From Streptomyces sp. SN-593 (lineage in GTDB: Bacteria; Actinomycetota; Actinomycetes; Streptomycetales; Streptomycetaceae), in NCBI RefSeq assembly GCF_016756395.1, contig NZ_AP018365.1, positions 3,881,001-3,945,000 on the forward strand: a DNA stretch of 64,000 nucleotides, read 5' to 3'. Below the pieces are notes generated by a model that worked only from the letters and a program-made list of their open reading frames with translations, was not told where the DNA came from and searched no databases. Shown here piece by piece: positions 3,558 through 24,689 of the stretch (positions are counted from its first letter, which is position 1; each line of letters starts with the position of its first letter). A program made the position numbers and the translations under genes.

Positions 3558-3592
3558 GGGCGGCGGCTCCTGGGCGCGGTGGCGTTGGTTGG

Positions 3593-5489: not shown

Positions 5490-5736
5490 CAATTCCTCCC
5501 CTCTCAGGGGATCGTCGATATGCGCTGAACAAGTGGCCTGCTCCTGCTCCGACCAGCAGCGAGTCCGCCGTGAGTCCGTGCGGAGAGGGCCAGATCAGCG
5601 CGAGCGGCAAGGGGCGTCATCGAGAGCTGTCGGCCACAGAGAAGGTCACGTGCAAGACCTCCCATCAACGTCGGCACGAGCGCGTGACGATTCCGTTCCG
5701 GCAGCTCGCGAGCACCGTGTCCGGGGCGTGGATCGT

Positions 5737-6150
5737 TCAGTCGCCGCCGCCGAGGACGGCCCACACGCTTTTGCCGGAGGGCAGTTGGGTGACGCCCCAG
5801 CACTGCGCCAGGACGTCCACGACAGCCAGGCCACGGCCGTGCTCGTCGTCCGGCACCGAAACCCGAGGTACGGGAAGGACGCGCGAGCGGTCCACGACGC
5901 CGATCCGCACCGTTCCGGGGCCCGGGCGAACGACCGTGACGCGTACCGGCTGACCACCCGCGTGCTCCACAGCGTTGGAGACCAGTTCGGTGACGACGAT
6001 CTCGGCGTCGTCCGCGAGTGGCTCAAGTCCCCACGCGCACAGGGCGATACGTACCAGCCGCCGAGCGGTACCGGCACTGCCGACAACAGAAGGCAACTGT
6101 GCGGAGTAGCCAGGGTGTCCTCGGGGGCGTGCGACGGTTCTCACGGTCAT
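5737..6150 (-). CDS. RsbW-like ATP-binding protein (HATPase_c_2)
   Basis: 137 residues. It has the N-box VTELVSNAVEHA and the GRGLAVVDVLA glycine-box region of GHKL ATPases, the compact layout of anti-sigma-factor serine kinases of the RsbW/SpoIIAB type that abound in Streptomyces. Such proteins bind ATP and may phosphorylate or sequester partners in regulatory switches. ATG at 6150 or the adjacent GTG at 6153 are both possible, with GAGG upstream. It is divergent from the XRE-TPR regulator gene at 6334, a frequent pairing in this genus. No sigma factor or antagonist is nearby. Confidence 0.85.
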   Translation of the reverse strand: MTVRTVARPRGHPGYSAQLPSVVGSAGTARRLVRIALCAWGLEPLADDAEIVVTELVSNAVEHAGGQPVRVTVVRPGPGTVRIGVVDRSRVLPVPRVSVPDDEHGRGLAVVDVLAQCWGVTQLPSGKSVWAVLGGGD

Positions 6151-6263
6151 CACCGGGCCTCGTTGGGTAGCGGGCTGCCTTGTGGCCGCCCTTCCGTAAG
6201 GTGACTTGACTTAACCGCGGGTCACCGTTGCAGTACCAGGAGTCATCCGGCAGGCGCATACCG

Positions 6264-6282
6264 CTATGCATGCGCTGCATAG
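6264..6282. promoter_or_regulatory. Inverted repeat CTATGCA-N5-TGCATAG, possible operator
   Basis: Perfect 7-bp arms (6264-6270 and 6276-6282) with a 5-bp centre lie just upstream of the GGAGG at about 6287. The position is right for autoregulation by the helix-turn-helix protein encoded next, or for an mRNA leader hairpin. A TTGACT hexamer at 6206-6211 could be a -35 element, but I see no convincing -10. Confidence 0.4.
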
Positions 6283-6301
6283 AAGTGGAGGATCAGAGCG
6301 A

Positions 6302-6337
6302 ATGGCGAGGTACCAACAGATGCGGGAGCGCCGGTGA
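6302..6337 (+). CDS. 11-codon leader ORF coupled to the regulator
   Basis: ATG at 6302 encodes MARYQQMRERR and stops TGA at 6335-6337, overlapping the GTG start of the XRE-TPR gene at 6334. A GGAGG lies about ten bases before the ATG. The regulator's own site (GGGAG at about 6324-6328) lies inside this short ORF, so ribosomes terminating here could re-initiate. This is inference from layout; no homologue is recognised. Confidence 0.4.
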   Translation: MARYQQMRERR

Positions 6338-7599: not shown

Positions 7600-7627
7600 T
7601 CAGCGACGAACGTAAGGGCAGGTCAAC

Positions 7628-8104
7628 GTGCGATTGGGCATCACCGGCCACCGCGGGCTGCCGGACCATGCGGCGCGGCTCGTCCGGGCCGCACTCACCA
7701 CGGTGATCGAGCAGTACCCGCCGACCGACCTGATCGGGGTCAGCTGCATCGCCGACGGCCCCGACGCATGGTTCGCGGAAGCGGTACTCGACCACGGCGG
7801 GCAGATCGAAGTCGTCATCCCGGCCGAGGAATACCGCGAGAACCTCCCCGAGTCCCATCACGCCACCTACGACGCGCTTCTCCGGCGAGCCTGCGAAGTC
7901 CACGTCACCGGGCTCAAGGAGTCCACCTCCGAAGCCCACCAGGCCGGCAGCGAAATCCTCGTCGGCGTCGTCGACCTGCTCCTGGCCGTCTGGGACGGCC
8001 AGCCCGCCCGCGGCTACGGGGGCACCGCCGACGTCGTCGCCTACGCGAAACGCACCGGCGTGCCCTACTCCGTCATCTGGCCCGAGGGCGCCACCCGGGA
8101 CTGA
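7628..8104 (+). CDS. SLOG-superfamily nucleotide-binding protein
   Basis: 158 residues beginning RLGITGHRGLPDHA, the GxTGHR-type first strand and loop of the SLOG (Smf/DprA-LOG) Rossmann-like fold. The C-terminal GGTADVVAYAKRTGVPYSVIWP matches the usual last segment of actinobacterial members. The family binds nucleotides or their derivatives, in some cases as sensors in conflict systems. GTG at 7628 has AAGGGCAGG upstream. It starts 28 bases after the regulator and 51 bases before the creatininase gene, so it is likely cotranscribed. The exact ligand is unknown. Confidence 0.7.
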   Translation: MRLGITGHRGLPDHAARLVRAALTTVIEQYPPTDLIGVSCIADGPDAWFAEAVLDHGGQIEVVIPAEEYRENLPESHHATYDALLRRACEVHVTGLKESTSEAHQAGSEILVGVVDLLLAVWDGQPARGYGGTADVVAYAKRTGVPYSVIWPEGATRD

Positions 8105-8155
8105 CGCCAACCGAACGCGATGCGGGCAGCAGCTGAGTCGTACGCGAGGAGAACC

Positions 8156-8884
8156 GTGAACCTGCTCCCCACCCTGACCACCACCGACGTCCAGCAGCAG
8201 GCACCGCAGGTCGCCGTCCTCCCCGTCGGCTCGTACGAACAGCACGGCTCCCACCTGCCGCTCGTCACGGACACCGCCATCGCCTGCATCCTCGTCCGGG
8301 AGATCGCCGCCGCGTACCCCGTCCTGCCGCTCCCACCGGTCACCATCGCGTGCAGCCACGAACACGGCACCTGGCCCGGCACCGTCAGCATCAGCGCCCG
8401 CACCCTCCACGCCGTGATCACCGACATCGCCCAATCCCTCGAAGCATCCGGCATCCGCAAACTCGTCGTGGTCAACGGCCACGGCGGCAACTACGTGCTC
8501 TCCAACGTCGTCCAGGAAGCCAACCTCACCGAACCCCGTATGACCCTCTTCCCCACCGCGGCCGAATGGACCCGCGCCCGCGAACACGCGGGCCTTGCCA
8601 CCAACTCCCACGACGACATGCACGCCGGCGAGATAGAGACCTCGATCCTCCTGCACGCCGAACCCGACCTCGTCCGCCCCGGCTACGAAACCGCCGACCA
8701 CGCCGCCCCCGAGCGCCCCTTCCTCCTCACCCACGGCATGCGCGCCTACACCGACACCGGCGTCATCGGCTTCCCCTCCCACGCCACATCAGCCAAGGGC
8801 AAAGCCGTCCTGACCAGCCTCACCCACGACTTCGAAACCCACCTCCACGCCCTCAACGAAACAGGGCCGACCACCAACGCGTAG
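8156..8884 (+). CDS. Creatininase-family amidohydrolase
   Basis: 242 residues. All family hallmarks are visible: PVGSYEQHGSHLPLVTDT near residue 22 (metal ligands Glu, His, Asp), VNGHGGN near residue 105, and DMHAGEIETS near residue 155. The family contains metal-dependent amide hydrolases, including creatininase, formamidopyrimidine hydrolases and mycofactocin-maturation enzymes; which reaction applies here cannot be told. GAGGAG lies five bases before the GTG at 8156, so I chose this over the ATG at 8120. The neighbourhood (SLOG, NUDIX) hints at a nucleotide-like substrate. Confidence 0.85.
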   Translation: MNLLPTLTTTDVQQQAPQVAVLPVGSYEQHGSHLPLVTDTAIACILVREIAAAYPVLPLPPVTIACSHEHGTWPGTVSISARTLHAVITDIAQSLEASGIRKLVVVNGHGGNYVLSNVVQEANLTEPRMTLFPTAAEWTRAREHAGLATNSHDDMHAGEIETSILLHAEPDLVRPGYETADHAAPERPFLLTHGMRAYTDTGVIGFPSHATSAKGKAVLTSLTHDFETHLHALNETGPTTNA

Positions 8885-8961
8885 GAGGTCTACCGGCATC
8901 AAGCCCGCCACGCAGCGCGAAGGACAGCTGGACAGGTGCTGGCGGCCATAAGCTCCCGGAC

Positions 8962-9432
8962 ATGAGTCCGCGCCTGAGCACCGTGATCCTGCCGATCTAC
9001 CGTTGGGCCGAGGGTCGAAAGGTATGGCAGGGAGCCGAGGAACTCGGCTCCCACACCGCCTACAAACCCGGCTGGGAGATCCCCGGCGGCTACCTCCACC
9101 CCGGGGAGACCCCGAGCGAAGGTGCCGCCCGCGAGCTCAAGGAGCTGGGCCTCACCACCCCCATCGGCCGCCTCCACGTCGCCGATTAGGAACCCCACCC
9201 GAGCGAGGGCGACAAGCTCCTCTTCGTCTTCGACGGCGGCCTTATCACCGACGCGGACCGCGCCCGGATCACCCCGGACGGCGTGGAGATCGGTGAGTAC
9301 GCCTTCCACGAAGAGAATCAGCTCGACGCCGTCCTGATCCCTCGCCTTGCTCGTCGGATTCACGCAGCATTCGCGGCGAAAGCAAACCGAAAGACCGTCT
9401 ACCTGGAGCACGGCAGCATGAGCGGATCATGA
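8962..9432 (+). pseudogene. NUDIX hydrolase pseudogene
   Basis: The frame from ATG 8962 gives MSPRLSTVILPIYRW, then KPGWEIPGGYLHPGETPSEG and RELKELGL, then a TAG at 9187-9189, after which the same frame continues EPHPSEGDKLLFVFDGG to a TGA at 9430-9432. The TAG sits where relatives have Trp (one base from TGG). The Nudix box GX5EX7REUXEEXGU is also damaged: RELKELGL lacks one of the two adjacent catalytic glutamates, as if one GAG codon was lost. The stretch before the box matches the fold poorly. Three defects together argue for a dead gene rather than a sequencing error. Confidence 0.75.
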
Positions 9433-9562
9433 CGTTCGCCGGTCTGCAATCGAGCGAGCGCAAGCCATCCCCCAGTCCGAGTGCCACGATCATCGAAACT
9501 CGGCAGCAGGACACGTTCTAATCGACGTTCAGGCGCCGTTCTTGATCGCCGCGGCGCCGAGC

Positions 9563-12500
9563 CTATGCCGCGAGGGTGATGGGCTTGGCCGTCTGCTCCA
9601 GTTCCTTGAAGATGACCTTGAGCCGTTCGAGTTCGTCACCCGTGAACAGGTCGTCCGGCCCCCCGGGGGCGAGGTCGGCAAACGAGTCCTCGTAGAGATC
9701 TCCCAGGCTGAGGATTCCGCGCCTGACAACCGCGTCGATAACCAGTGTCAGGAAGTCGAATTGGCGGGAGCTGAGCTCCTTGCCCGCGCAGAATGCCTCG
9801 AATGCCTTCTGCGCGGCCTGCCGATCCAACCCGCACAGCCCGCGCACGAAGAGACCAAGCCCTCCGGATGAGCGCACCTCGTCCAGGTCTTCGGGTGAGG
9901 CGACAGCCTCCGCGAGGAAGACCTCCTCCAGACTTGCAAGATCGAGCTCGGTGATCTGCTCGTTGAGACGCAGTTTGCGCACCACCGGCTGATCTTCATG
10001 GCGAAGGAGATAGGCCCGCGCCTTCTGCTTGAAGCGCTGCTCGTCCGTGCCTTGGGGCATGCCCTCGATCTCCGCCTCACTGATGTCGCCGAACTCGTCG
10101 ACGAAGTCGGTGTAGACGATGTTTCGCTTGACAGCGGGGTCGGTGAGCCGAGCGAGCTGGCGCAAACGACGCCGCATATCCTCCAGCATCGGGAGCGTCA
10201 CGTCGTTCCACCACTCCTCTCCGGACACCGCTTCCAGAAGTTCCGCTTGCTCGCGGACCACGGGGATGTTGGTCTTGGTCAGCAGGTTGGAGGCGATGTC
10301 CTGGATCTTCGTGCGCAGCTTGGCGAACTCATTGCCGCCTTCCAGCGCGGCGAGCTGGAGACCATACGCCATCAGGTCGAACCGCCTGGCCTCCTCGCCC
10401 GTCTCTTCATCGGGACGGAACTCGCTGGGGAGACCGAGCAGGTGGTCACGGATCTCGGTGTCCGCGGCGTCGTCCACCCGGTGCCAGCTGCCGAACTCGC
10501 CGAAGGTCTCGATCTCCCTACGGTGCGGGCGCACCAGGAAGTTGTCCAGGTTCATACCGGTGACAGTCCGATGCAGCCGGTGGGCGAGCGCCCAGCGGAT
10601 CTCGGCCTCAGTACTGATCGCATCGGGGCCAGCATCGCGTGCAGGATCGGGCTGCTGCCGCTTGTCCAGGACCCGCACCAGGTCAAGCTGGCGCCGTAGG
10701 AGCTGTTCGGTGAGGGTGACGGCTCTGCGTCCCTCTGACCGGTCGAGTTGGCTGTTGAAGAAGTCGATGTTGCCGCAGAAGTCGAAGACGTAGAAGTTCT
10801 GCTTGTTGTGCGCGGGGTTGGTGGAATCGGGACCATAGAGGGCCGGACGCAGGCGGGTGCCGCGACCGATCATCTGCCAGAACTTGGTCCTGGAGAAGAC
10901 CGGCTTGGCGAAGACCAGATTCACCACCTCGGGCACGTCGATACCGGTGTCGAGCATGTCGACGGAGATGGCGATGTCGGGAGCGTTCGGCGGGTTCTTC
11001 GGGTTGGAGAAGGCGTCAATGAGGGACTGTGCGTAGGTCTCTTTGTACGTGATCACACGCGCTGTATGGCCGGCACCCTTCGGATAATTGGCGTTGTAGC
11101 GGGCCTCGATGTAGCGGGCGTGTTCGTTGTTCTTGGCGAAGATGATCGTCTTGCCGAGCCGGTCACCGCCCTCGACGCGGTGACCACGCGTCATGAGCGT
11201 CTCCAGCATCTTGTCCACGGTGTTGTCGTTGAAGAGGTACTTGTTCATCTCGTCACGGCTCACCGCGTCCGGGATGTCACCGTCCTCGGTCCACTCCATG
11301 GCGTCCCACTCGGCCTTCTCCTCGTCCGAGAGGTCGGCGTAACGAATGCCGTGCTCCATGAACTTCAGCGGTACCTTGACCGCCTTGGGCAGGACGAGAT
11401 AGTGCTCGGCGGCCGCTTCCTGGAGGTCGTACGAGTCGGTCGGGACCCCGTCCTCCATGGCGAACAGCTTGTACGTGTTGTGGTCGATCTCGTTCTTGGG
11501 CGTGGCGGTCAGGCCGAGCAGCAGCGAGTCGAAGTAGCGGAACAGCTCGCCGTACTTCGCGTACACGGAGCGGTGTGCCTCGTCGATCACGATCAGGTCG
11601 AAGTGGCCGGGACCGAAGCGGCGACGGCCCGCGCCGTCGATGACATCGATCTGCTTCATCATCGTCTGGTACGTGGAGAGGTAGACACGGGCCGCCGCAC
11701 CCCTGTCGTCGAGGAGGCTGGCCACCGGGGTGTTCGGCAGGTTCTCCTTGAACGCCTTCATCGCTTGGGTGACCAATGCCTGCCGGTCGGCGAGGAACAG
11801 CACCCGCTGCGCCCACCCCGCCTTCATCAACTGGTCCACGAGGGCCACGGTGGTACGGGTCTTGCCAGTGCCAGTCGCCATGACGAGCAGCGCCTGCCGC
11901 CCCCGGTCCCGCTCGAAGGTCTCGCCCACACGCTTGATCGCACGAAGCTGGTAGGGACGGCCGGCGATCTTCTCGTTCACCGGTGTGGTCGTCAGGGAGA
12001 GGCGCCCGGCACGCTGCCGGATGTGCCAATGCAGCTCGTCCCTCGTGAAGAAACCCTGCACCTGGCGGGGCGGGTAGCCAAGGCCGTCGTCCCAGAGATA
12101 GGTCTCGTATCCGTTGGTGTAGAAGATCACCGGGCGGCGGTTGAACTGGCTTTCCAGCGCGTCCGCGTACAGCTTTGCCTGCTGCTGCCCGTCCCGGGCG
12201 TCACGCCGGGTCCGCTTGGCCTCGATCACGGCGAGAGGCTTGCCATCGTCGCCCCAAAGTACGTAGTCGACGAAGCCCTTGCCGCTCTTGGTGGGCATAC
12301 CGGAGGCGATCGGGTACTCCGTGTCCTTTCCGGGAGTGAGGAGGTCCCAGCCCGCTTCTTTGAGGAGCAGGTCTATGAACGCGTCGCGGGTCGCCTTCTC
12401 GTCGTAGTCGTGAGTGTCCTGCACAGCCTGGTTGGCGGCCTTCGCGGCGGCGATCTGTGCCTTGAGCTCTTCGAGTTGCCGGGCCAGGTCCGCGTTCTGG

Positions 12501-13138
12501 GCGCGTTCAGCCGCAAGTTGCTCGGCTTGCTGCTTAAAGCGCGCCTCGTCCTCTGCCTCTTTGGCCTTGAGCTCGGCCTGCCTTAGGGCGCGCGCCTGAG
12601 GGGAGAGGGGACGCGGTACAACGCTGGTGTCGAATTCCAGGCCGGCGGGGGGCAGTGCGGCGGGCCGGAGTGCATAGGTCCGGGCGAACCAGTAGAGGGA
12701 GTGGAACAGCTCCCTGACACTTGCCTCAGCGATGGACTTCGGGACCGGGGCGGCCTTGTGCACGGCATTGTTCCCATGCCGGCGGATGAGGTCCATCTTG
12801 GCGTTGACCCTCGGCCCCACGAGCTGCCGAAAGGTCGGCTCGTGGAGCATCGCCGCGAGGTCCTTCTTGTAGGGCTGGCTGAGGCTGCTGTCCTTGTCAT
12901 ACATCCAGCGGGCCGCGATCTCGATGGCGCGGCGGGCGTAGAAGCAGGCGGCTCGGGGATCGTGATGGATCAGCCGCTCGGCGCGGGTCGCTTCATCGTA
13001 GAGGGCGGGCCATTCGGCATAGAGGAAGGCGAAGTTGCCACCTGCGGCACGGCCGATGCTACCGGCGGCGGCGCGGTCGCGGGCGGCCCTGTCCTGCTGG
13101 GTCCGTCCCTGGCCGTCGCAGTTCTGCAAGTCACCCAT
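9563..13138 (-). CDS. hsdR: Type I restriction enzyme, endonuclease/translocase subunit R
   Basis: 1191 residues, normal length. Order: DUF4145-like helical domain (~35-140), coiled coil (~185-240), HsdR nuclease domain (~250-380) with catalytic Asp291 and Glu306-Ala-Lys308, then a superfamily 2 motor with Walker A ATGTGKT at 421-427 and the Walker B box DEAHRS, and an EcoEI R-like C-terminal region. It cleaves unmethylated DNA after ATP-driven translocation, in complex with HsdM and HsdS. ATG at 13138 has GGGGAGGGG upstream. It is transcribed in the same direction as hsdM-hsdS but separated by 186 bases with a strong hairpin. Looks intact. Confidence 0.95.
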   Translation of the reverse strand: MGDLQNCDGQGRTQQDRAARDRAAAGSIGRAAGGNFAFLYAEWPALYDEATRAERLIHHDPRAACFYARRAIEIAARWMYDKDSSLSQPYKKDLAAMLHEPTFRQLVGPRVNAKMDLIRRHGNNAVHKAAPVPKSIAEASVRELFHSLYWFARTYALRPAALPPAGLEFDTSVVPRPLSPQARALRQAELKAKEAEDEARFKQQAEQLAAERAQNADLARQLEELKAQIAAAKAANQAVQDTHDYDEKATRDAFIDLLLKEAGWDLLTPGKDTEYPIASGMPTKSGKGFVDYVLWGDDGKPLAVIEAKRTRRDARDGQQQAKLYADALESQFNRRPVIFYTNGYETYLWDDGLGYPPRQVQGFFTRDELHWHIRQRAGRLSLTTTPVNEKIAGRPYQLRAIKRVGETFERDRGRQALLVMATGTGKTRTTVALVDQLMKAGWAQRVLFLADRQALVTQAMKAFKENLPNTPVASLLDDRGAAARVYLSTYQTMMKQIDVIDGAGRRRFGPGHFDLIVIDEAHRSVYAKYGELFRYFDSLLLGLTATPKNEIDHNTYKLFAMEDGVPTDSYDLQEAAAEHYLVLPKAVKVPLKFMEHGIRYADLSDEEKAEWDAMEWTEDGDIPDAVSRDEMNKYLFNDNTVDKMLETLMTRGHRVEGGDRLGKTIIFAKNNEHARYIEARYNANYPKGAGHTARVITYKETYAQSLIDAFSNPKNPPNAPDIAISVDMLDTGIDVPEVVNLVFAKPVFSRTKFWQMIGRGTRLRPALYGPDSTNPAHNKQNFYVFDFCGNIDFFNSQLDRSEGRRAVTLTEQLLRRQLDLVRVLDKRQQPDPARDAGPDAISTEAEIRWALAHRLHRTVTGMNLDNFLVRPHRREIETFGEFGSWHRVDDAADTEIRDHLLGLPSEFRPDEETGEEARRFDLMAYGLQLAALEGGNEFAKLRTKIQDIASNLLTKTNIPVVREQAELLEAVSGEEWWNDVTLPMLEDMRRRLRQLARLTDPAVKRNIVYTDFVDEFGDISEAEIEGMPQGTDEQRFKQKARAYLLRHEDQPVVRKLRLNEQITELDLASLEEVFLAEAVASPEDLDEVRSSGGLGLFVRGLCGLDRQAAQKAFEAFCAGKELSSRQFDFLTLVIDAVVRRGILSLGDLYEDSFADLAPGGPDDLFTGDELERLKVIFKELEQTAKPITLAA

Positions 13139-13170
13139 GCCGGTGCCCCTCCCCTGTTACGCAGCTCAAT

Positions 13171-13202
13171 CGTACGGGTCCGGGGAGCCCCGGACCCGTA
13201 CG
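13171..13202. terminator. Perfect 15-bp hairpin between hsdS and hsdR
   Basis: CGTACGGGTCCGGGG (13171-13185) is perfectly complementary to 13188-13202 with only two bases between the arms. It lies 32 bases upstream of the hsdR start, after hsdS. No T-run follows on either strand, so it may be a GC-type terminator or attenuator, or a processing site lowering hsdR expression relative to hsdMS. A weaker stem pairs 13237-13246 with 13271-13280. Confidence 0.6.
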
Positions 13203-13324
13203 AGGTCGACAGATCTTGTCCGTCTCCTACGGCAGAGCCGCCCCTGGACCCGGGCTCCCCTGCTCGACCGCAGGGGCGGCGTGTGGTGCGGTCGGCGCTA
13301 TGCACCGGGTACACCGGAGGCGGC

Positions 13325-14524
13325 TTACGCCGCGCCGCCGGTCGCCTCATGATCCCAGAGGGCGCCGGAGAAGGCACGGTGTTGCAGGGAGGTGAAGAGT
13401 TCGTCGAGGGTGGCGAGGTGGGTCAGGTGACACTGTTTGACCTCCTGCAAACGGTTCAGCCGGCTCAAGAACGCGTGCTGCCGGCCCAAATCCGGCACTG
13501 CAATCGGGCTTTCCTTCACAGCGCCCGTACTAATGGTATTGAGTCCAGAAGTCGTGTTCGCCGACCTCAGCAAGTGACGTCTACCCACCGCAGAATTCAG
13601 ATACATCTCCACATATTCGGGAACGAGATACTGACGATCCACTCGAATCCGGATCAAGTGGTTCTGGTGCGTACAGACATCAATTGAACCGTCCCATAGC
13701 GCAACACGTCCAACTTCGGAAGGATTTCCGTGCCCTTCCACAACTAGCAGATCGCCAGCCGCAAGGCGAGTGCGCTCGATTTCTTGCGGACTCGCCTGCA
13801 GCGTTTTGATCACATCCAGTTTCAAATAGCCCCTGTAAACATTCGCTACGCGAAGGTAGGGCACCTCCTGAGGCTTGGAAGTCCGGGCGCTTGAAAGCTG
13901 GAGTCCTCCCTGCACTTGAGCGAAGTCGGCCAACCTTGCCGACTTCGGCAGATCGCCGAACGTGTCGAGGAAGATGGACTGGGCGAGGTCGTCGAGGAGG
14001 TCGATAGCCTCGTGGCGCTTGATACGGAGGGCGTCCACCTGGTCGAAGAAGGCGGCGATGCGCTTCTGCTCCGCAAGTGGGGGCAACGGGACCATAAGGC
14101 GTCGCAAGTAGGATTCTGGAACCCGCCTCTGACCGCCACTGCCAGTCATCCGAAGCTCACCCTCGACACGGATCCAATGCTGTCGAAGAAATCTCAGCAA
14201 GTATCGTGCGTCCGCGTCTTGCTTAGGCCGAATAACATGGAATTCCGTAGAACCTGCACCGATTTCGTGCTCAAGCCGCGCCTGCGCGATCTTGCCATTT
14301 TGGAAACATGGCGTGATTTTCGCGACAAGAATATCTCCGGTGCAGAAAGGCGTGTAACCGGTACGCACTTCACCGTACCGCCGCGTCACACCAGGAGCCG
14401 TAGTTCCGAGCTCAGAAACATCCGCCATACCCAGAAATGACACCTCGGTTTCAGGATCGATGGGTTTTTTATGCGACGGATTAATCTCAGCAATATCACC
14501 CAACGGCAGGGATGCGAAACTCAT
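13325..14524 (-). CDS. hsdS: Type I restriction-modification specificity subunit
   Basis: 399 residues with two target-recognition domains. The first (~1-150) ends PLPPLAEQKRIAAFFDQVDA, the typical central conserved helix entry; the second (~190-360) covers VQGGLQLSSARTSKPQEVPYLR onward. Each would read half of a bipartite DNA site. ATG at 14524 overlaps the hsdM stop (ATGA). The region 13480-14480 is visibly richer in A/T than its flanks, as is usual for horizontally exchanged recognition domains. The recognised sequence cannot be deduced from the protein by eye. Confidence 0.92.
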   Translation of the reverse strand: MSFASLPLGDIAEINPSHKKPIDPETEVSFLGMADVSELGTTAPGVTRRYGEVRTGYTPFCTGDILVAKITPCFQNGKIAQARLEHEIGAGSTEFHVIRPKQDADARYLLRFLRQHWIRVEGELRMTGSGGQRRVPESYLRRLMVPLPPLAEQKRIAAFFDQVDALRIKRHEAIDLLDDLAQSIFLDTFGDLPKSARLADFAQVQGGLQLSSARTSKPQEVPYLRVANVYRGYLKLDVIKTLQASPQEIERTRLAAGDLLVVEGHGNPSEVGRVALWDGSIDVCTHQNHLIRIRVDRQYLVPEYVEMYLNSAVGRRHLLRSANTTSGLNTISTGAVKESPIAVPDLGRQHAFLSRLNRLQEVKQCHLTHLATLDELFTSLQHRAFSGALWDHEATGGAA

Positions 14525-16041
14525 GCGAACATCCCTTTCAGCTCCGCCGTGCCCTTAGCGATTTCTTCGTTGAGTTGCTCCAAATCAGCCAGGACCTCCA
14601 CCGGGGTCCGCGTCACGATCTCCTGGTAAACGATTTCCTTGTATCGGTTCAGGGAGAGGTCGTAGCCCTGGGCCGCGATATCCGCCTTGGGTACGCAGAA
14701 ACTCTGCTCGGTCCGTGCCCGGCCTCGCTCCGCGCCATCCCGTTCCTGCCAGCGGGCCAGGATGTCGGGGAGGTTATTCCTCAAGAGTTCGTCGGCCGTC
14801 AGCGGGTCGCCCTGCGGGCGGACTCCTAGGCGCTCCTCGGGAAGCAACGGGTTCCGCTTGTCATCTAGACTCAGACCGTCCGCTTGCATGTCGTAGAACC
14901 AGACATGGTCCGTGCCACCCGAGTCCGTCTTCGTGAAGAACAGGATCGCCGTCGATACACCCGCGTACGGCTTGAACACTCCGCTCGGTAGCTTGACTAC
15001 CGCTTGGAGCTGCTGCTCCTCCACCAGGATGCGGCGCAGTTCCTTGTGTGCCTTCGTCGAACCGAACAGCACCCCATCGGGGACAATGACGGCCGCCCGG
15101 CCACCGGGCTTAAGGAGCCGCAAGAAAAGGGCCAGGAACAGCAGTTCCGTCTTCTTCGTTTTGACGATGCGCTGGAGGTCCACCGCCGTGGACTCGTAGT
15201 CCAGGCTCCCCGCGAAAGGTGGGTTCGCGAGGATCAGGGAGTAGCGTTCGGCCTCGTCGGCCGCGCTCTCCGCAAGCGAGTCACGGTGCCGGATGTCCGG
15301 GTTCTCCACGCCGTGGAGCAACATGTTCATGGAGCCGATGCGGAGCATCGTGTTGTCGAAGTCGAAGCCGTGGAACGTCTTCTCGTTGAAGCGCTTGCGC
15401 TGCTCGGCACCCAGCAGCGACTCGCGGTGTACCCGCTGCATGTACGACGCCGCCTGCACCAGGAAGCCAGCCGTGCCGCACGCCGGGTCGCAGATCTCGT
15501 CGCGAGGTCCAGGCTGGGTCATCTCGACCATCAGGTCGATGATGTGCCGCGGCGTGCGGAACTGACCGTTCTGGCCTGACGTGGCGATCTTAGCGAGCAG
15601 GTACTCGTAGATGTCGCCCTTAGTGTCGCTGGTGTCCATGGAGATGCCGTCGAGGAGGTCGACGACCTTCGCCAGCAGGTTCGGCCCGGGAATCGTGAAC
15701 CGGGCGTCCTTCATGTGGTGGGAGTATGTCGATTCGTCCCCGCCCATGCGGCGCAAGTACGGGAAGGCGCCATCGGCGACGACCCCGTACATGATCTCGG
15801 GATCCTTGACCTTGAAGTTCTGCCAGCGTAGATCCTGCTGGTCGTCCGTGAAGAAGGGGTCCGGGTCAGGCTTGCCCGTTGCTGTCGCCTTGCGGTCCTT
15901 ACGGGTCTGGATCTCGTCCAGCCGCTTGATGAAAAGCAGATAGGTGATCTGCTCCATCACCTCCAGTGGGTTGGAGATACCGCCGGACCAGAACGCGTCC
16001 CAGACGCGCCCCACCTTGCTCTTCAGTTCGCCCGTAATCAC
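14521..16041 (-). CDS. hsdM: Type I restriction-modification methyltransferase subunit
   Basis: 506 residues. Starts GTG at 16041 (VITGELKSKVGRVWDAFWSG), with AGGA upstream; the longer frame to 16131 lacks family character. It has the HsdM N-terminal helical domain, the AdoMet-binding motif DPACGTAGFLVQA and the adenine-N6 catalytic motif ILANPPFAGS. It methylates adenine within the HsdS target and forms the core enzyme with HsdS. First gene of hsdM-hsdS-(hairpin)-hsdR. Confidence 0.95.
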   Translation of the reverse strand: MITGELKSKVGRVWDAFWSGGISNPLEVMEQITYLLFIKRLDEIQTRKDRKATATGKPDPDPFFTDDQQDLRWQNFKVKDPEIMYGVVADGAFPYLRRMGGDESTYSHHMKDARFTIPGPNLLAKVVDLLDGISMDTSDTKGDIYEYLLAKIATSGQNGQFRTPRHIIDLMVEMTQPGPRDEICDPACGTAGFLVQAASYMQRVHRESLLGAEQRKRFNEKTFHGFDFDNTMLRIGSMNMLLHGVENPDIRHRDSLAESAADEAERYSLILANPPFAGSLDYESTAVDLQRIVKTKKTELLFLALFLRLLKPGGRAAVIVPDGVLFGSTKAHKELRRILVEEQQLQAVVKLPSGVFKPYAGVSTAILFFTKTDSGGTDHVWFYDMQADGLSLDDKRNPLLPEERLGVRPQGDPLTADELLRNNLPDILARWQERDGAERGRARTEQSFCVPKADIAAQGYDLSLNRYKEIVYQEIVTRTPVEVLADLEQLNEEIAKGTAELKGMFA

Positions 16042-16579
16042 ACCGTGGATCCTACGACCACCAAGCCCCCGGGAGGACCATCTTGCGGTCTCCCAGACAG
16101 CCCCCGCCCGTTCAGACCCCAACGTCCGCACGCCCGGTCGTGCCCGAACCGCCAGCCAGACGCGGCCCCACCGCAGAGCCGCCAGCCAGGGCCGATACCA
16201 GGCGCAGGCCGTACAGCCGGGCTCCGCGCTCCAGCTCGGGCGGCAGCGAGGGTGACTTCGGCAGGATGCCGCCGTCCCGGGTGTCCGTCATTTCCGCCTG
16301 CACGAGTCCTACAGCTGGTCGAACCACGGGCAGCTCAAGATCTTCCGCAGACCGGCCCAGCACACTTCCAGGCCGCCGTGCACTTGGATGGCGTTTTCGG
16401 CTTCGCCGCCAGAGCAGGCTGAAACCCGCTCACCAATCAACCGACGGTGACGCCCGTCTTGACTGCCCGTCGCTACCTTGGCAGGATCGGACTCAGCAAG
16501 CAAAACATCGCGCATATGGCTGCGCAGACCCTGTGGCCGTCCCTTCGGGGGCGGCCACAGACGTGTTTACGGAGGTTCG
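16042..16579. other. Divergent intergenic region between hsdM and the DUF3800 gene
   Basis: 538 bases with no supportable gene; the open frames here lack recognisable protein features. It should contain the outward promoters for hsdM (left) and the DUF3800 gene (right). The one clear element is the TTCG-loop hairpin at 16531-16560. Confidence 0.6.
16531..16560 (+). promoter_or_regulatory. 13-bp hairpin with TTCG tetraloop in the DUF3800 leader
   Basis: CTGTGGCCGTCCC (16531-16543) pairs with 16548-16560 around a TTCG loop, with a single T-G wobble on the RNA. It ends eleven bases before the GGAGG (16571-16575) of the downstream gene. UUCG-capped stems are exceptionally stable. The position suggests a leader structure, attenuator or 5' stabiliser rather than an end-of-operon terminator. 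Confidence 0.55.
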
Positions 16580-17521
16580 GTGCATCTTTGCTACATCGAC
16601 GAGGCGGGCAACGGGCAAACACTTGATCCCGCGCGGCCTGATGCCCCTCCGGTCCTCGTCGTCGGCGGATTCACCGTGCCCCGGAACCACATCAAGTCCC
16701 TCACCTGGGCCTTCCTCGACGTCAAGAAGCATTACCGACCGCAGCTTCGGAACGCGGACCAGCTCTCGGACGTGATCCAGCACGAGATCAAGGGCGCGGA
16801 CGTTCGCAAGAACCTGCGCGCCGGCAACCACGGCTGGCGGCGTGCGGCCATGGAGTTGATCGCTTCACTCCTCGACATGCTGGAGGCTCACGAAGCGCGT
16901 CTCCTCGCTCGTGTGTGGATCAAGGAAGAGAGGCTGGCGTTCGACGAGTCCGGAGTCTACCCGGCCTCCGTCGCCGCGCTGAACGAGACCTTCCAGGCGC
17001 AGCTCGCCCACGAGCACTCGCGCGGCATGATGGTGCTCGACAGCCGTACGAAGGTGAAGAACGCCCCCAACGTGCACTGCGTGACCACCCGCAAATACCG
17101 CACGGGTGGGGACAGCCTGCGCGGGGTCATCGAGTCCCCGGTCTTCGGGCACAGCGACACTCACACGCTCCTCCAAGTCGCTGATTTGGCGGTGTCCTCC
17201 CTCCTGTTTCCGATCGCGTGTCATGCCTACCTGAGCGACGTGACGTGGAATGTGCACTGCGACGATGCTTATCGGCCACTGCGAGAGCAGTTCGGTCAAC
17301 GGCTGAAGAAGCTGCAGTTCCGTTACCAGGACGCCGGAGGGAAGTGGCGGGGTGGGATCGTGGTGTCCGACCGACGGACGCAGCAGCCGTCGAATCTCAT
17401 GTTCGGCCCCCGCAAGACTCCTGCCCTTCCTTCGGCCTCCATCCCCTACCAGCAGGGCATGCGGTACGGCGATACTCTGCCGGGGGCAGGAGCAACAGAG
17501 GGTCTGCCATCCGCGCCCTGA
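16580..17521 (+). CDS. DUF3800 family protein
   Basis: 313 residues. VHLCYIDEAGNGQ at the start and LLQVADLAVSSLLFP near residue 200 are the two signature regions of DUF3800, whose Asp/Glu residues are arranged like an RNase H-fold active site. GTG at 16580 has GGAGG four bases upstream, decisive against a longer frame from 16478. Members are frequent in defence islands and on mobile elements, but the biochemical role is not settled. Here it sits between the type I restriction system and the attachment site, the last gene of the putative element. The C-terminal ~45 residues are low complexity. Confidence 0.8.
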   Translation: MHLCYIDEAGNGQTLDPARPDAPPVLVVGGFTVPRNHIKSLTWAFLDVKKHYRPQLRNADQLSDVIQHEIKGADVRKNLRAGNHGWRRAAMELIASLLDMLEAHEARLLARVWIKEERLAFDESGVYPASVAALNETFQAQLAHEHSRGMMVLDSRTKVKNAPNVHCVTTRKYRTGGDSLRGVIESPVFGHSDTHTLLQVADLAVSSLLFPIACHAYLSDVTWNVHCDDAYRPLREQFGQRLKKLQFRYQDAGGKWRGGIVVSDRRTQQPSNLMFGPRKTPALPSASIPYQQGMRYGDTLPGAGATEGLPSAP

Positions 17522-17748
17522 TCGAAGCATGTGAACGAAGACGAGGAGACGGGGTGGTAGCCGCGTCAGCTGCCACCCCTGTCGAGGCAGCGCAGCGTTG
17601 CTGCAGGAAGAGCCCGCCTTCTCTGGGAGAAATTTGGGAGACGATCATGGAAAAACGGCCTCCCGAGACCCGCTCAGACCAACCCCCACCCCACCCCCTG
17701 ACCTGCGGTTTCCCGAATCCCGCAGGTCACGCCAGGGCCTCAACTGCC

Positions 17749-17795
17749 TTCGGGACGAAGAGGCCGTGGGTTCAAATCCCGCCACCCCGACTCCA
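17749..17795 (+). other. Attachment site: 3' half of a proline tRNA gene (CGG anticodon)
   Basis: From the anticodon loop TTCGGGA (17749-17755) onward this is a proper tRNA 3' half: anticodon-stem strand CGAAG, variable AGGCC, T-arm GTGGG-TTCAAAT-CCCGC with all five pairs, acceptor strand CACCCCG, discriminator A. CACCCCG complements CGGGGTG, the usual 5' acceptor strand of actinobacterial tRNA-Pro. Upstream of the loop the match stops: CTGCC stands where CTTCG is needed to pair, and there is no D-arm or 5' acceptor strand. The truncation exactly at the anticodon loop is typical of an integration core repeat. Confidence 0.8.
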
Positions 17796-17805
17796 AAGCA
17801 ACAGG

Positions 17806-17841
17806 TCAGGGCCCTGATCTTTTCGAGGATCGGGGCCCTGA
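17806..17841. terminator. Hairpin downstream of the tRNA fragment
   Basis: TCAGGGCCCTGATC (17806-17819) pairs with 17828-17841 around an eight-base loop containing TTTT, with one wobble pair. It probably is the original terminator of the host tRNA-Pro gene, retained in chromosomal DNA beyond the integration point. Confidence 0.7.
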
Positions 17842-17994
17842 GTCGTTCCCGGGGTGGCTTGGGGGCCATGTGGAAGCCAGCCTCGGCATCCCGCTTCCGG
17901 GCGGGAACAACCCGACTCGGGGGAACGCCTGAGACGGGCCCCCGGACGGCGCTACCGTCGCCTCGACGGATTGCCGGCCCGGGGGGGACGCCAC

Positions 17995-18708
17995 ATGCAG
18001 GAAAGATCAGCGGAACAAGGCTCGGAGGCCGTGCCGACGTCCGGACCTCTCATCGCCGGCGAAGTCTCGCTGCCGGAGGTCATGGCCCGGCTCCGGCACG
18101 ATCGCCCGGTCTTCCACTCCGAGGCGGACCTCCAGCACAGCTTCGCGCGCGTGTTGTGGGAGTTGGCGCCCGAGGTCAGCTCTCGACTCGAAGTACGCCA
18201 GGACGTCCCGGACACGACCGGCCGAAGATACCTCGACCTACTCTGCATCGGACCCTCCGCCCGCACCGCCATCGAGTTCAAGTACCGCACGGCCAAGTGG
18301 ACGGGTACGGCCGGACCTGACCAGGAGCAGTACGCACTACGGTCTCACTCGGCCGCCGACCTGGCCCGGCTCGGCTTCGTCTCCGACATCGCCCGCCTGG
18401 AGCGCTTCGGCAACCGCCCCGACCAGAACGGCCTGGCCCTCCTCATCACCAACGAAGCCGGCCTGTGGCTGCCCTCGAAGCAGAACGACACCCGGGACCG
18501 TGAATTCCGCCTCCACGAGGGCCGCACCCTCCCGAACCGACTCCTCTGGGGCGGCGGCGACTACCCACGGAACACGCGAACCCTGCACGGCGCCTACACC
18601 CTCAACTGGCAGCCCTACTCACTGCAAGACGGACCCGGGGGCGAGTTCCGCTACCTCGCCGTCGTCACCGACCCGGTACCCGTTCCGGATCTCACGACCC
18701 GGCCGTAA
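17995..18708 (+). CDS. PD-(D/E)XK nuclease-like protein
   Basis: 237 residues. The central segment RRYLDLLCIGPSARTAIEFK has the Asp then Glu-Xaa-Lys spacing of PD-(D/E)XK nucleases, preceded by a conserved-looking helix (HSEADLQHSFARVLWELAP). No methyltransferase or helicase partner is adjacent. ATG at 17995 follows a GGGGGGGAC stretch; an upstream frame from 17854 has no support. First gene beyond the attachment site, so it may be host chromosome or an older insertion at the same tRNA. Could be a Mrr-like or other restriction-type nuclease; specific function unknown. Confidence 0.55.
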   Translation: MQERSAEQGSEAVPTSGPLIAGEVSLPEVMARLRHDRPVFHSEADLQHSFARVLWELAPEVSSRLEVRQDVPDTTGRRYLDLLCIGPSARTAIEFKYRTAKWTGTAGPDQEQYALRSHSAADLARLGFVSDIARLERFGNRPDQNGLALLITNEAGLWLPSKQNDTRDREFRLHEGRTLPNRLLWGGGDYPRNTRTLHGAYTLNWQPYSLQDGPGGEFRYLAVVTDPVPVPDLTTRP

Positions 18709-18909: not shown

Positions 18910-19923
18910 ATGAGCGCTCAAGCAGATCCATTCCTCAACGGTGTGCCCCCGATGAGTGACTACGAGGGGCAGGTGTGGGCCGCGCTCAACGCGCACTGGG
19001 AACGTCGCGACAACCGTCGTGGACTGCCGAACTGGGCGAACGCCGCGCTCGGTCGCACCGGTGAGGCCGCGGGGAGCGCAGTGGGCCGGGTCAGGGGCGC
19101 TGTGCCGGAGGCGGTCAAGGCACCGATCCGTCGCGCGGGTGACGCTGTCGCCACCAAAGCTGCCCGACCGGCGCTCGCAGCCGCTACCGCGCTGCTCGAG
19201 ATGGTCAACGAGTGGGCCTTGGAGCTCAACGACCCGAAAGGCGTCGAGAAGCTCGCCCGCAAACGAGGTGTGGAACTGGACAGCTTCACCGAGCTTCGGC
19301 AGAAGGATCTCAAGTCCTGTGACAGGCTCCTGACCTTCAACACCCTCACGTGGCGGACCGCCGGCGCGGTCGAAGGCGGTGCGATGGGGCTGCTGGCCAT
19401 GGTCCCCGTCGCCGGCATCCCCGTCGCGATGACAGCGGACATCCTCGTGGTCCAGGTCCTGAGCACGTCGATCGCGGCGCGCATCGCGTACTCCTACGGC
19501 TACGACGCCAAAGATCCCGACGAGCAGACCTTCATCCAGCGTCTCGTACGCCGGTCCTTCATGGCCCAGGCAACCAAGGTCGAGCCGTTGCGCGACACCG
19601 CTCGGGCGGCGGATGCGCTCAGAGGACGGATACGGTGGTCGGACAAACTCCGCCAAGACCATCACCTCGTGGCCGCCCTGGAGAAGCTGCTGCAGCAACT
19701 CGGTCCGGCCGGCTCCAAGGTGTCGGTCCAGGACGTCGCCAAGGTCGTGCCGGTCGTGGGTGTCCTTGTCGGTGCCGGTATGAATGCCGCGATCCTCGGC
19801 AGGGTGGCCGCTGACGCCCAGCGGTACTGCCAGACGCGATTCCTGTGCGACAAGTACGGACTGCCGCTACCGATCGCGCTCGCAACGGACCGGGGCGACG
19901 ACCTCGACGACCACGCCATCTAG
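18910..19923 (+). CDS. EcsC family protein
   Basis: 337 residues. The core from about residue 60 has EMVNEWALELNDPKGVEKLA, a hydrophobic glycine-rich segment (GGAMGLLAMVPVAGIPVAMT) and a second one (VVPVVGVLVGAGMNAAIL), the pattern of EcsC-family proteins. The family is named after a B. subtilis gene next to an ABC transporter and its function is poorly understood. ATG at 18910 has GGGGGA upstream; a second ATG at 18952 is possible. It stands alone with no obvious operon partner. Confidence 0.8.
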   Translation: MSAQADPFLNGVPPMSDYEGQVWAALNAHWERRDNRRGLPNWANAALGRTGEAAGSAVGRVRGAVPEAVKAPIRRAGDAVATKAARPALAAATALLEMVNEWALELNDPKGVEKLARKRGVELDSFTELRQKDLKSCDRLLTFNTLTWRTAGAVEGGAMGLLAMVPVAGIPVAMTADILVVQVLSTSIAARIAYSYGYDAKDPDEQTFIQRLVRRSFMAQATKVEPLRDTARAADALRGRIRWSDKLRQDHHLVAALEKLLQQLGPAGSKVSVQDVAKVVPVVGVLVGAGMNAAILGRVAADAQRYCQTRFLCDKYGLPLPIALATDRGDDLDDHAI

Positions 19924-22103: not shown

Positions 22104-24689
22104 TCAGAGCGTGTCGGCTCCTTCCCCCGCCACCCGGCGGCGGTTGGTCCGCGCGACGGTGTGCGCGAACCACTCCAGTACCGCGCAGAGTTCCCCGGCG
22201 TGTTCCGCGAAGACCTCCAGCGGGAAGGACGGGCGCAGGTCCAACTTGGCCTCGGCCAGGCCGATGCCGTCGATGGCGTTCAGCCGGTCCAGCAGTTCGC
22301 GGCGCAGGGACTCGTCGTCGAACGGGGGACGTCGCTTCAGGTACTGGAAGACGACCTCGACCGTGCCGGACACCGGGTAGATCCCCAGGGGCCAGGTCGT
22401 ACGGAGATCCGGAGTACCGTCCAGCCGTGCCGTGGGGAAGCAACTCGTCTCGTTCGCCCGGCCGTAGGCGAGGTGGCCGCCCTGTTCCTCCCAGGAGTGG
22501 AGGGCGCGCAGGACTCCGCCGGCGGTCTGCTCGGTCTGGTTGTCGCGCAGTTGCGCCTCGAACCGGGCGGCGGCCGATGACCGTGCGCTGTCGCCGGCCG
22601 GAGCCAGGTCCGCGGAGTCCTCATCGGAGTCCCTGCCCAGAAGTGCCGCGAGGTCGGACGTCGTCAGCCGGTGGGAGCGTCGGGCCCGGCCGACCTCGTC
22701 GAAGGGAACTCCCTCTGCTTCCAGCCGGGTTCGCGCGTCACCGGACTCCTCGCCGTCCGGCCGGCGGAATCCCGCGGAGACGCGGCCGTCCGCCGTCAGC
22801 ACGCGGTAGGCCCCGTGGAGCCCGGCCTTGGTCGCCAGGTGCTGGCCGACGGGGACCGCGTGGGTGCCGATCAGCGCCGCGACGTCACCGTAGGTGGTCC
22901 AGGTGCCGGCGGGCATGGCGAGGAGAGCCCCGCGCAACTCCTTCCAGCCGGACCACTCGTCGTCGGCCAGGGTCGTCCCGGCGATCGGGCCGGGCCACAA
23001 CCGCACGGCACGCTCCGCGAGTTCGCCGGCGCGGGCCAGGACCTCGGCCCGGCCCCAGCGCTCCTGTCCGGCGATGGCCTGGTTCATGCGCAGGGCACTG
23101 GAGTCCAGGATCTCCTGCTTGCGGCGGAAGGGGTGGTTGGACAGCTTCGCGTTGTCCGCGGACAGCGTCAGGTTTCCCAGCGTGTGGACGAGCGAGGCGT
23201 GGAGTTCCTCCGGGGTCTGCCCGTCCTGGGTCTCCTCGGCGAGCAGGTCCAGCCACTGGTGGGCCGGGTGCTGCGGGAGGACGTGCTCCACCGTGAGGTG
23301 GGCCTTGGCGTAGTCGACCGGCTCGCTGCTCCCGTAGCTCTCCTCCAGCCTGCGCAGCACCTGGAAACGCTGGTTGCCGCGGCCGGCCTTGTAGAACGGC
23401 CGGGTGCGGACGGCCTCGCGGACCGCGTCGTCGTCGGGCCAGACGCGGGCTCCCACCTGGTTCTTGGACAGGAAGCGGCGGACCGCCTCCGCGGGGTCGT
23501 CGTCCTTCTCCAGTTCCTTGGGGATCTCCATGAACACGCGGTTGCTGCCCATGGTGGAGTAACCCGCCAGCAGCCGCCGCACCATGTAGCTCTCGGCGTA
23601 CGCGAGCGCCTGGGCCGCCTGGCGGCCCGTGGCCCGGCCGGCGTCCACCCGGTCGAGGAGCACGAGCGCCAGCGGGTAGTGGGTCTGGCCGCCCCAACGG
23701 GACATCCGCTCCAGGACTTCTCGGAGGTCGGGGTCCGGTTCGCGCTCGGGCTGGAGGATGCGCACGAGGCGTTCGGCGCGTCGCGCGAGAGCCGCGATCT
23801 CCTCCTCCAGGGCCGCCTCGTCGGCGCTGATCGGTTCCAGGCGCCGCTTCTGGTCGCGGTAGATCTCGCTCTGCTTGGCCCTGTTGTTGCCCGCCACCAC
23901 CAGGTCCAGCCACACCAGGAGTTCCAGGTTGGCCGGCCCCAGGAGCTCCTGCATCGGAAGCCAGCGGCTGCGGTAGACGTGCTCCCCGCGGGTCGGCAGG
24001 CACATGAAGAGGTAGTTCCGCAGCAGGTCGCTCTGGCTCAGGCCGACGCCGGTGTTGTTGATCGACTCGAAGATCCGGTAGACGTTGTCGCCTTCGGCCG
24101 CCGTGATCTCGACGATCGACAGCAGCCCGCCGAGGACGGCCTCCACCGTGTCCGTCCACGCCTCGCCCCCGCTCTCCTCCCCCTCGGTCAGCGCCGACAG
24201 GAAGAAGCGGTAGGCGGCGCCCACGTTGCCGGGGCCGCCCGCCTTCGGGGAGTTCTCGATGCAGGCGGTGAACGCGTCGCGGTCGGCCTGCGTCGGCAGC
24301 AGGCGGTAGTGGTCGTCGCCGCTGCGGTACTTGTTGACGAGGACGAGGTCGTGGATACGGTCGGCCTTCTGCTCCGCTCCCCGCGCGCGGTGCCGGTCGC
24401 GCAGCGCGGTGAAGGCGAGCATGAGGGTGGTCAGCCGCTGCTGCCCGTCGACGACGAGCCAGCGCTGCATCCCGCCCGCCGTGATCCGGCCGGGCGCCAG
24501 CACGACGGACCCGAGGAAGTGGGCCGCGGGAGCACGGTTCTCCGACTGGTCCTCGACCAGTTCCCGGACGTCGTCCCAGAGTTGCCGAAGCTGCTCGCGC
24601 TCCCAGCTGTACGTCCTTTGGTACAGGGGCACCTGGTACTGCTTCTCGCCCTGGACGAGGTTCTTGAACGTGGTCTCCTGAGCGTGCAC
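22104..24689 (-). CDS. DUF262-DUF1524 (GmrSD-like) protein fused to a cysteine-less alkyltransferase-like domain
   Basis: 861 residues. Residues ~5-240 are DUF262 (ParB-like) with the nucleotide-linked motif VDGQQRLTTL (80-89). Residues ~440-540 are DUF1524 with the HNH-like TVEHVLPQ (466-473) and GNLTLS. Residues ~585-660 (MPAGTWTTYGDVAALIG, VPVGQHLATK, GAYRVLTADGRVSAGF) match the DNA-binding domain of O6-alkylguanine alkyltransferase, but the PCHRV active site is replaced by GAYRV with no cysteine. A further unknown domain spans ~705-840. GmrSD enzymes cut modified DNA. GTG at 24689 has GGGGGAGAGG upstream; the longer frame to 25010 is unsupported. Confidence 0.8.
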   Translation of the reverse strand: MHAQETTFKNLVQGEKQYQVPLYQRTYSWEREQLRQLWDDVRELVEDQSENRAPAAHFLGSVVLAPGRITAGGMQRWLVVDGQQRLTTLMLAFTALRDRHRARGAEQKADRIHDLVLVNKYRSGDDHYRLLPTQADRDAFTACIENSPKAGGPGNVGAAYRFFLSALTEGEESGGEAWTDTVEAVLGGLLSIVEITAAEGDNVYRIFESINNTGVGLSQSDLLRNYLFMCLPTRGEHVYRSRWLPMQELLGPANLELLVWLDLVVAGNNRAKQSEIYRDQKRRLEPISADEAALEEEIAALARRAERLVRILQPEREPDPDLREVLERMSRWGGQTHYPLALVLLDRVDAGRATGRQAAQALAYAESYMVRRLLAGYSTMGSNRVFMEIPKELEKDDDPAEAVRRFLSKNQVGARVWPDDDAVREAVRTRPFYKAGRGNQRFQVLRRLEESYGSSEPVDYAKAHLTVEHVLPQHPAHQWLDLLAEETQDGQTPEELHASLVHTLGNLTLSADNAKLSNHPFRRKQEILDSSALRMNQAIAGQERWGRAEVLARAGELAERAVRLWPGPIAGTTLADDEWSGWKELRGALLAMPAGTWTTYGDVAALIGTHAVPVGQHLATKAGLHGAYRVLTADGRVSAGFRRPDGEESGDARTRLEAEGVPFDEVGRARRSHRLTTSDLAALLGRDSDEDSADLAPAGDSARSSAAARFEAQLRDNQTEQTAGGVLRALHSWEEQGGHLAYGRANETSCFPTARLDGTPDLRTTWPLGIYPVSGTVEVVFQYLKRRPPFDDESLRRELLDRLNAIDGIGLAEAKLDLRPSFPLEVFAEHAGELCAVLEWFAHTVARTNRRRVAGEGADTL

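Follow-up and report, generated by a model that had tools for sequence, protein, structure and literature searches.

A 3' half of a tRNA gene without its 5' half raises the question of which mobile element ends at this point, and of what kind of DNA follows. Such a fragment of tRNA-Pro(CGG) lies in a 64,000-nt stretch of the 8.97-Mb genome of Streptomyces sp. SN-593 (C1:3881001-3945000; hereafter the window, whose own numbering is used for positions given without a contig). The original prediction, made from the letters of the window, saw in it the right end of one element that had integrated at the 3' part of a tRNA gene, with chromosome beyond.

Core copies and elements at tRNA-Pro(CGG)

The fragment, which we call att3, opens with the first of the seven anticodon-loop bases (TTCGGGA) and reaches the acceptor end. 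The 5' half is absent and the break falls exactly at the anticodon loop, just as had been described; ARAGORN reported zero tRNAs in the window. The features on which the following analysis rests are:

17749-17792 (+): att3, the 44-bp core TTCGGGACGAAGAGGCCGTGGGTTCAAATCCCGCCACCCCGACT, truncated 3' half of tRNA-Pro(CGG), attR of element E2
17624-17647 (+): arm-type direct repeat TGGGAGAAATTTGGGAGACGATCA, left arm of the E2 att site
C1:3876119: TGGGAGAAAATTGGGAGAAGATCT, the partner of TGGGAGAAATTTGGGAGACGATCA, right of att2
1-17748 (no strand): right 17.7 kb of E2, the whole of which is C1:3876005-3898748

The genome contains three copies of the core, all on the + strand, one in an intact tRNA (att1) and two truncated (att2 and att3). 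att2, at C1:3876005, is identical to att3 over 44/44 bases and lies 22,744 bp to its left, 4,995 bp left of the window. att1 is an intact tRNA-Pro(CGG) at C1:3781631-3781705, 117 kb leftward, with one mismatch to att3, and a pattern search found no further intact copy of the core. When up to 3 mismatches were allowed, a 22-base T-arm/acceptor pattern had four matches in the 8.97-Mb genome, namely the three core copies and tRNA-Pro(TGG), and none with a reversed control; at up to 14/44 mismatches, no fourth core copy appeared in 3760001-3960000. Where one second copy had been predicted to the left, there are two, and the shared repeat, estimated at about 47 bases, measures 44 bp, about 42 of them tRNA.

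The fragment is indeed a scar left by integration at a tRNA 3' end, and the three core copies on one strand make the locus a tandem array with the order tRNA, E1 (a 94-kb prophage), E2 (22.7 kb), att3. Our main reading, to which we assign a probability of about 0.92, is that 17749-17792 is the attR of the 22.7-kb E2, one layer of a tandem array at tRNA-Pro(CGG). The intact + strand tRNA-Pro(CGG) expected to the left, with a tyrosine integrase beside it, is indeed present at 117 kb, but the element ending at att3 does not have its left end there: because the 94-kb E1 separates the tRNA from E2, the left end of E2 is att2.

The arm-type repeats show which ends belong together. The pattern TGGG[AT]G-N5-TGGG[AT]G has exactly four matches in 200 kb (0.15 in shuffles). 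GTGT-type repeats stand right of att1 and left of att2, and GAGA-type repeats right of att2 and left of att3. The types thus form pairs, the first being the arms of E1 and the second the arms of E2. The two elements share one site while each has its own paired arms and integrase, as in accretion, and both have the layout of elements at tRNA 3' ends, with the core as a direct repeat at both ends and the integrase gene by one of them (g19 in E1, g143 in E2).

The original reading, a single element from the intact tRNA to att3 followed by untouched chromosome, accounts for the core at both outer ends, and a 117-kb unit could still excise whole. As a single insertion it is refuted by the third core copy in between, with its own arms; the arm repeats moreover form two separate pairs, there are two integrases, and the right flank opens with an element-type arm remnant and the gene g163 (see below). 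We therefore consider it very improbable. Broken tRNA pieces do occur in genomes, and the fragment might in principle be a chance or degenerate one, or a terminator-type repeat, of no significance for recombination. We regard this as practically negligible, given the 44/44 bases kept between two truncated copies, the precise position of the break within the anticodon loop, and the recurrence of this architecture in relatives, with 29 truncated and 69 intact copies; the arm evidence, together with the attP evidence given below, refutes it.

The architecture recurs among the 98 non-duplicate core copies that we compared (the 69 intact ones include tRNAs with GTA for GTG in the 5' half). Beyond the core and the hairpin that follows it on the right, 46 of the 98 copies have a direct repeat of 11-bp period, with at least 9/10 positions matching at lag 11; many of the copies are not independent, since their genomes are related. 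Crude shuffles give 0.2 such repeats, and the lags from 6 to 16 other than 11 give 0 to 4.

Returning to the tandem array, we propose that every element would bring a copy of the tRNA 3' half together with its own terminator-like hairpin, and that the integrase would exchange strands within the anticodon loop. Exchange at that point would let each incoming element restore a full tRNA at its left and displace the old 3' half rightward. The elements would have arrived in the order E3 (an older element, now a remnant), E2 and then the prophage E1, which now stands at the tRNA. One base of the core is of interest here: it is T in the intact tRNA of this genome and C in att2, att3 and 21/21 intact tRNAs of the examined relatives. 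A T in att1 alone is what one would expect if E1 was the last to replace the 3' half, which is suggestive only; the same base is C in the E1-type relative pSITFR-21c (see below) and T in 43/47 intact tRNAs of the genome-contig loci, so that a later mutation could also explain it.

The array is thus a layered record of insertions and, as such, ordinary textbook accretion. AICEs and defective AICEs accrete at tRNA-Arg in Streptomyces (PMC9513070), and the accessible text of that report describes, as here, successive elements at one tRNA gene, direct repeats and an old remnant at the same site; the present array differs from those described there in its tRNA-Pro(CGG) target, its 94-kb prophage, an element that gave no TraB match, and integrases with a LacI-type helix-turn-helix (HTH). 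Tandem AICEs in one tRNA gene are also described for the pairs Sav3708/Sav3728 and Fean5518/Fean5534, the Frankia pair having been excised singly and together (PMC3218068). Those arrays involve other tRNAs and other element types, and the accessible part of that paper describes no HTH insertion.

Gene content of E1 and E2

The genes of E2 that bear on its classification and cargo are:

C1:3875978-3877690 (L013:15978-17690), left of the window (-): E2 integrase, at the left end of the element
266-802 (+): MobC/NikA-like mobilisation protein (MobC, E = 7e-6, weak)
803-2344 (+): relaxase (PF03432, E = 5.9e-6, weak match)
9563-13138 (-): HsdR, type I restriction
13325-14524 (-): HsdS, type I specificity
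14521-16131 (-): HsdM, type I methyltransferase
16478-17521 (+): DUF3800 protein, the last E2 gene

E2 additionally encodes a DUF2637 protein and a creatininase-family protein. Pfam returned no FtsK/TraB-type translocase among the 16 larger E2 proteins (a set that omits five small ORFs), and E2 is therefore better classed as an integrative mobilizable element than as an AICE. It combines an integrase with a relaxase, and no transfer apparatus was found, an assignment that relies on the weak relaxase and MobC matches. In two relatives (G013 and G005), an E2-type integrase (95% identical) and an E2-type hairpin stand directly at the intact tRNA.

The reading frame of the E2 integrase crosses the core, so that its C-terminal tail is encoded antisense to the tRNA and its last residues are set by the DNA beyond the junction. 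The protein has 570 residues here and 599 in a relative from A. bryophytorum (L102), whose core is part of an intact tRNA. Separately, the HsdR and HsdM encoded within 9563-16131 are 90% and 92% identical to a pair that stands right of the last core, after g163, in genome G016. From these sequences, cargo seems to move between elements at the tRNA-Pro site.

E1, which extends over 94 kb from att1 to att2, encodes terminase, portal, major head, tape-measure and endolysin proteins among the ten of its proteins that were scanned, and also has lambda-exonuclease/RecT genes. With this temperate-phage gene set (terminase, portal, capsid, tail and lysis), E1 is a prophage. A relative of it occurs as a circle: pSITFR-21c of Streptomyces sp. 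ITFR-21, a circular plasmid of 103,521 bp with major capsid, minor head, RecT and exonuclease genes, carries an integrase of the E1/E2 family and, in the approximately 100.7 kb scanned, a single core with 0 mismatches. Its left flank matches the DNA left of att2 in 172/227 alignment columns, compared with 130/259 for the DNA left of att3 and 123/259 for that left of the tRNA. On the other side, the plasmid flank agrees with the DNA right of att1 in 132/154 columns, compared with 106/160 right of att2 and 102/165 right of att3. As judged by these alignments, the site on pSITFR-21c is the junction predicted for an excised E1, that is, a natural attP of an E1-type relative. A joined attP in circular form was seen in this E1-type relative, and no circular E2 was seen; both E1 and E2 may be mobile at present.

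One E1-like prophage, at G004:C2:3831611-3930320 (L059, L060, L092), is inverted between direct core copies. Its integrase and both arm repeats, of which one was found by pattern and the other by eye, are inverted with respect to the core, and its attP should therefore carry the core reversed relative to the arms. In the IMG/VR locus L096, the core likewise lies on the strand of the integrase.

DNA beyond the last core copy

Immediately right of att3, the window contains:

17806-17841 (+): hairpin, probably a tRNA terminator, assigned to the right-hand element end (E3)
17860-17879 (+): decayed arm-type repeat TGGGGGCCATGTGGAAGCCA, probable left-end remnant of an older E3
18031-18708 (+): g163, a protein with a D-x(n)-ExK signature (PD-(D/E)XK-like, motif by eye)
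19201-19923 (+): g164, EcsC family, which follows g163 also in G006 and G025

The original prediction foresaw relatives in which a clean tRNA is followed directly by the hairpin of 17806-17841. Such an arrangement exists, but the hairpin itself is not constant: it occupies the equivalent place in most of the 98 core copies with stems that differ yet, by eye, remain self-complementary. The hairpin seems to travel with the elements. Similarly, att3 is a firm right boundary, as had been claimed, for E2 but not for a junction with the chromosome, since a decayed arm repeat and g163 lie to its right.

The decayed repeat TGGGGGCCATGTGGAAGCCA is 3/20 bases off the GAGCC-type pair of relatives and fails the strict arm pattern; a shorter arm pattern had five matches right of att3, each with 5/18 mismatches. 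An arm repeat and then g163 stand likewise at the left ends of elements elsewhere and follow core copies in six relatives (G034, G020, G006, G025, G004 and G016). g163, for which neither Pfam nor NCBIfam gave a match, was present in 19 of the 150 genomes searched. The core lay within the retrieved locus in 14 of these 19, and none was found within the short flank examined in G023, G117, G055, G118 and G009. From this sequence context, we infer that an older element, E3, probably left the DNA right of att3 as its remnant. A search for its right end, as a further core copy at up to 14/44 mismatches, found none.

The extent of the insertions can be gauged against relatives, 21 of 100 of which were examined closely. 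Three (G001, G012 and G033) have near-empty sites with the order g18, tRNA, g203 and 2.3-4.8 kb from the tRNA to g203; by eye, no arm repeats were found at these sites. Here g203, the first gene shared with the near-empty sites, lies at C1:3955137, 56 kb right of att3 and beyond the window. The stretch from att3 to g203 holds genes that relatives carry right of their last core (g172 and g192 in G006, g192 and g197 in G004, g188 and g194 in G025, g192 in G007), and part of it is therefore probably older chromosome of the group, although G021, where g192 lies left of the last core copy, is a counter-case.

It could also be that g163 and the hairpin are ancestral chromosomal flank and that nothing older than E2 was inserted. 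In one relative (G050), the tRNA, a hairpin, g163 and g203 follow each other inside 3 kb, and g163 could there be read as an old chromosomal neighbour of the tRNA. Against this, g163 lies between the tRNA and the integrase in G006, G034 and G020; in G034 it is 78% identical, compared with 93-98% for the tRNA-flank genes g13-g18; arm-type repeats follow the hairpin in G006, G034 and G020 and in G050 itself; and the three genomes with near-empty sites are without g163. We find an ancestral flank unlikely and retain the older element E3 as the preferred reading.

Two further observations concern this side of the site. A GmrSD-type (type IV restriction) protein is encoded at 22104-24689 of the window, less than 7 kb right of att3, in the company of g163 and g164, and defence-type genes thus cluster beside the core. 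In G033, about 31 kb past g203, a degenerate core copy with 5 mismatches stands at G033:C1:4448579 (L200); by eye, the 40 bases to its left resemble no element arm.

An integrase family with a LacI-type helix-turn-helix

The new part of this system is the integrase family. The E1 and E2 integrases are 56% identical. The E2 protein contains a LacI-type HTH (PF00356, E = 1.4e-16), to which the E1 protein aligns; this HTH follows the catalytic Lys hairpin (K249) and precedes the HxxR box (H422, R425). The analysis covered 87 loci of the family, 80 on genomes of several actinobacterial genera and 7 on viral contigs, and from these we chose 46 members for alignment (39/80 and 7/7, respectively). 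Pfam recognized PF00356 in 46/46 of them. By pattern or Pfam, the HTH was present in 85/87 loci; the narrow pattern missed 18/87, Pfam found the domain in the 16 of these that were aligned, and the remaining two are L142 and L154. Many HTH positions are at least 90% conserved. R212, K249, R425, H448 and Y457 are invariant in the 46 sequences and H422 is at least 90% conserved, which is the catalytic set of tyrosine recombinases.

Structural comparison points in the same direction. Among PDB sequences, lac repressor headpieces come closest to residues 303-356 (E 5.4e-8). In an AlphaFold model of the integrase (mean pLDDT 78.7, pTM 0.58), the HTH is a separate small domain with pLDDT of about 77-91, flanked by two linkers below 50. 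By VIA-align, the modelled HTH matches the LacI-family CelR (Z 9.9, 1.3 A over 49 residues, 51% identity), and the model minus the HTH matches the Tn1549 integrase (Z 15.5, 5.7 A over 280 residues). The family shares with the lambda Int, Tn916 and Tn1549 integrases the core-binding/catalytic fold, the catalytic residues and, from the covariation described below, an arm-binding N-terminus, and differs from them by an additional LacI-type HTH, some 46 residues long, that separates the Lys hairpin from the HxxR box. pSAM2, which integrates in tRNA-Pro of S. ambofaciens, is likewise a Streptomyces element with a tyrosine integrase and a tRNA 3' end as target; its Int is probably shorter than the integrases of the E1/E2 family. 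Searches of the open-access literature listed no paper that, as far as titles and the beginnings of abstracts tell, concerns a tyrosine integrase with a LacI-type HTH. Beta-strand insertions in the catalytic domain are known from two tyrosine recombinase subgroups, in a paper whose accessible text contains 'LacI' 0 times (PMC8138268).

In 52 of the 87 loci, a core copy on the strand opposite to the integrase gene is found at most 6 kb downstream of it, and in 46 of these 52 the tRNA 5' half is intact; reading frames below 480 residues count as misses in this tally, the downstream sequence of many loci is shorter than 6 kb, and both entries of this genome are excluded. Of 35 genomes from the genus, 17 (counting the present one) encode a relative at E <= 1e-60.

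The integrase would, in our model, have three DNA-binding parts: an N-terminal part for the arms, a core-binding/catalytic part at the tRNA, and the inserted LacI-type HTH. The site has as many motif classes, namely the core, the 11-bp arm repeats and a motif, GCAGGTCA, found in the window at:

17699-17706 (-): GCAGGTCA, inverted, 50 bp left of the core
17722-17729 (+): second left-side GCAGGTCA
17801-17808 (+): right-side GCAGGTCA with one mismatch (ACAGGTCA)

Allowing at most 1 mismatch, GCAGGTCA occurs within 60 bp left of the core in 22 of the 29 truncated copies (1.6 expected), and shows no enrichment left of the intact tRNAs (4/69, 4.2 expected). Within 60 bp to the right, it is found at 21/29 truncated (2.0 expected) and 66/69 intact copies (4.5 expected). 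At E2-type ends, one motif at -50 and an oppositely oriented one at +52 or +53 make up an inverted pair whose centre falls within the anticodon loop; at E1-type ends, the left motif points the other way. GCAGGTCA stands right of the core also at the near-empty sites, with one base different in G001 and G012, so that the right-side motif may simply belong to the tRNA terminator.

To connect protein parts with motifs, we compared their variation across 47 of 54 integrase loci, the 7 with an unclear arm being dropped. Variation in the arm repeat tracks that of the N-terminal domain (r 0.70, partial 0.65, 0/500 permutations), compared with r of 0.32-0.43 and partial values of -0.26 to -0.08 for the other domains. 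The sequences are related and the permutation counts are therefore not probabilities, which leaves a strong hint: judging by this covariation, the N-terminal domain probably reads the 11-bp tandem repeats (TGGGAGnn...). Because the arm repeats covary in this way, the specificity of the integrase is directly testable. The HTH covaries neither with the arm repeats (partial -0.08) nor with GCAGGTCA (partial -0.02). The core-binding and N-terminal catalytic parts show weak covariation with GCAGGTCA (partial 0.20 each, 2 and 3 of 500 permutations), which argues against the HTH as its reader.

The HTH inside the catalytic domain might read GCAGGTCA about 50 bp to both sides of the crossover and so fix the elements on tRNA-Pro(CGG) across actinobacteria, while the label 'LacI regulator' hides them from element-finding tools; taken as a whole, we hold this proposal to be rather doubtful. 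Alternatively, GCAGGTCA could be a Xis site, or the HTH an autorepressor. A role outside recombination altogether, as an autorepressor module or as a passenger that controls only int transcription, is a serious possibility, if somewhat short of an even chance. LacI-family HTHs are established repressors, the linkers of low model confidence may be flexible, and the covariation results, absent for the HTH and weak for the core-binding and N-terminal catalytic parts, fit such a role. Against it stand the insertion of the HTH within the catalytic domain in 46/46 members, with no end fusion, its conserved positions, and the presence of GCAGGTCA on both sides of the core.

Whichever DNA it contacts, the family joins a repressor headpiece to a DNA-acting enzyme by building it into the catalytic domain, and surveys that trust 'LacI' product names could miss the mobile elements concerned. 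In 50,697 phage records, the integrase had no match at 80% coverage. Two plasmid records gave long matches, over 97% and 79% of the query, and both label the integrase 'LacI family DNA-binding transcriptional regulator'. A figure legend in PMC3218068 marks a 'transcriptional regulator LacI' gene, which may or may not encode an integrase of this family, in maps of Frankia AICEs. The second of the two LacI-labelled plasmid relatives of the integrase (H15; 40% identity, 79% coverage) lies on the Streptomonospora litoralis plasmid NZ_CP036456.1, at 88393-89817.
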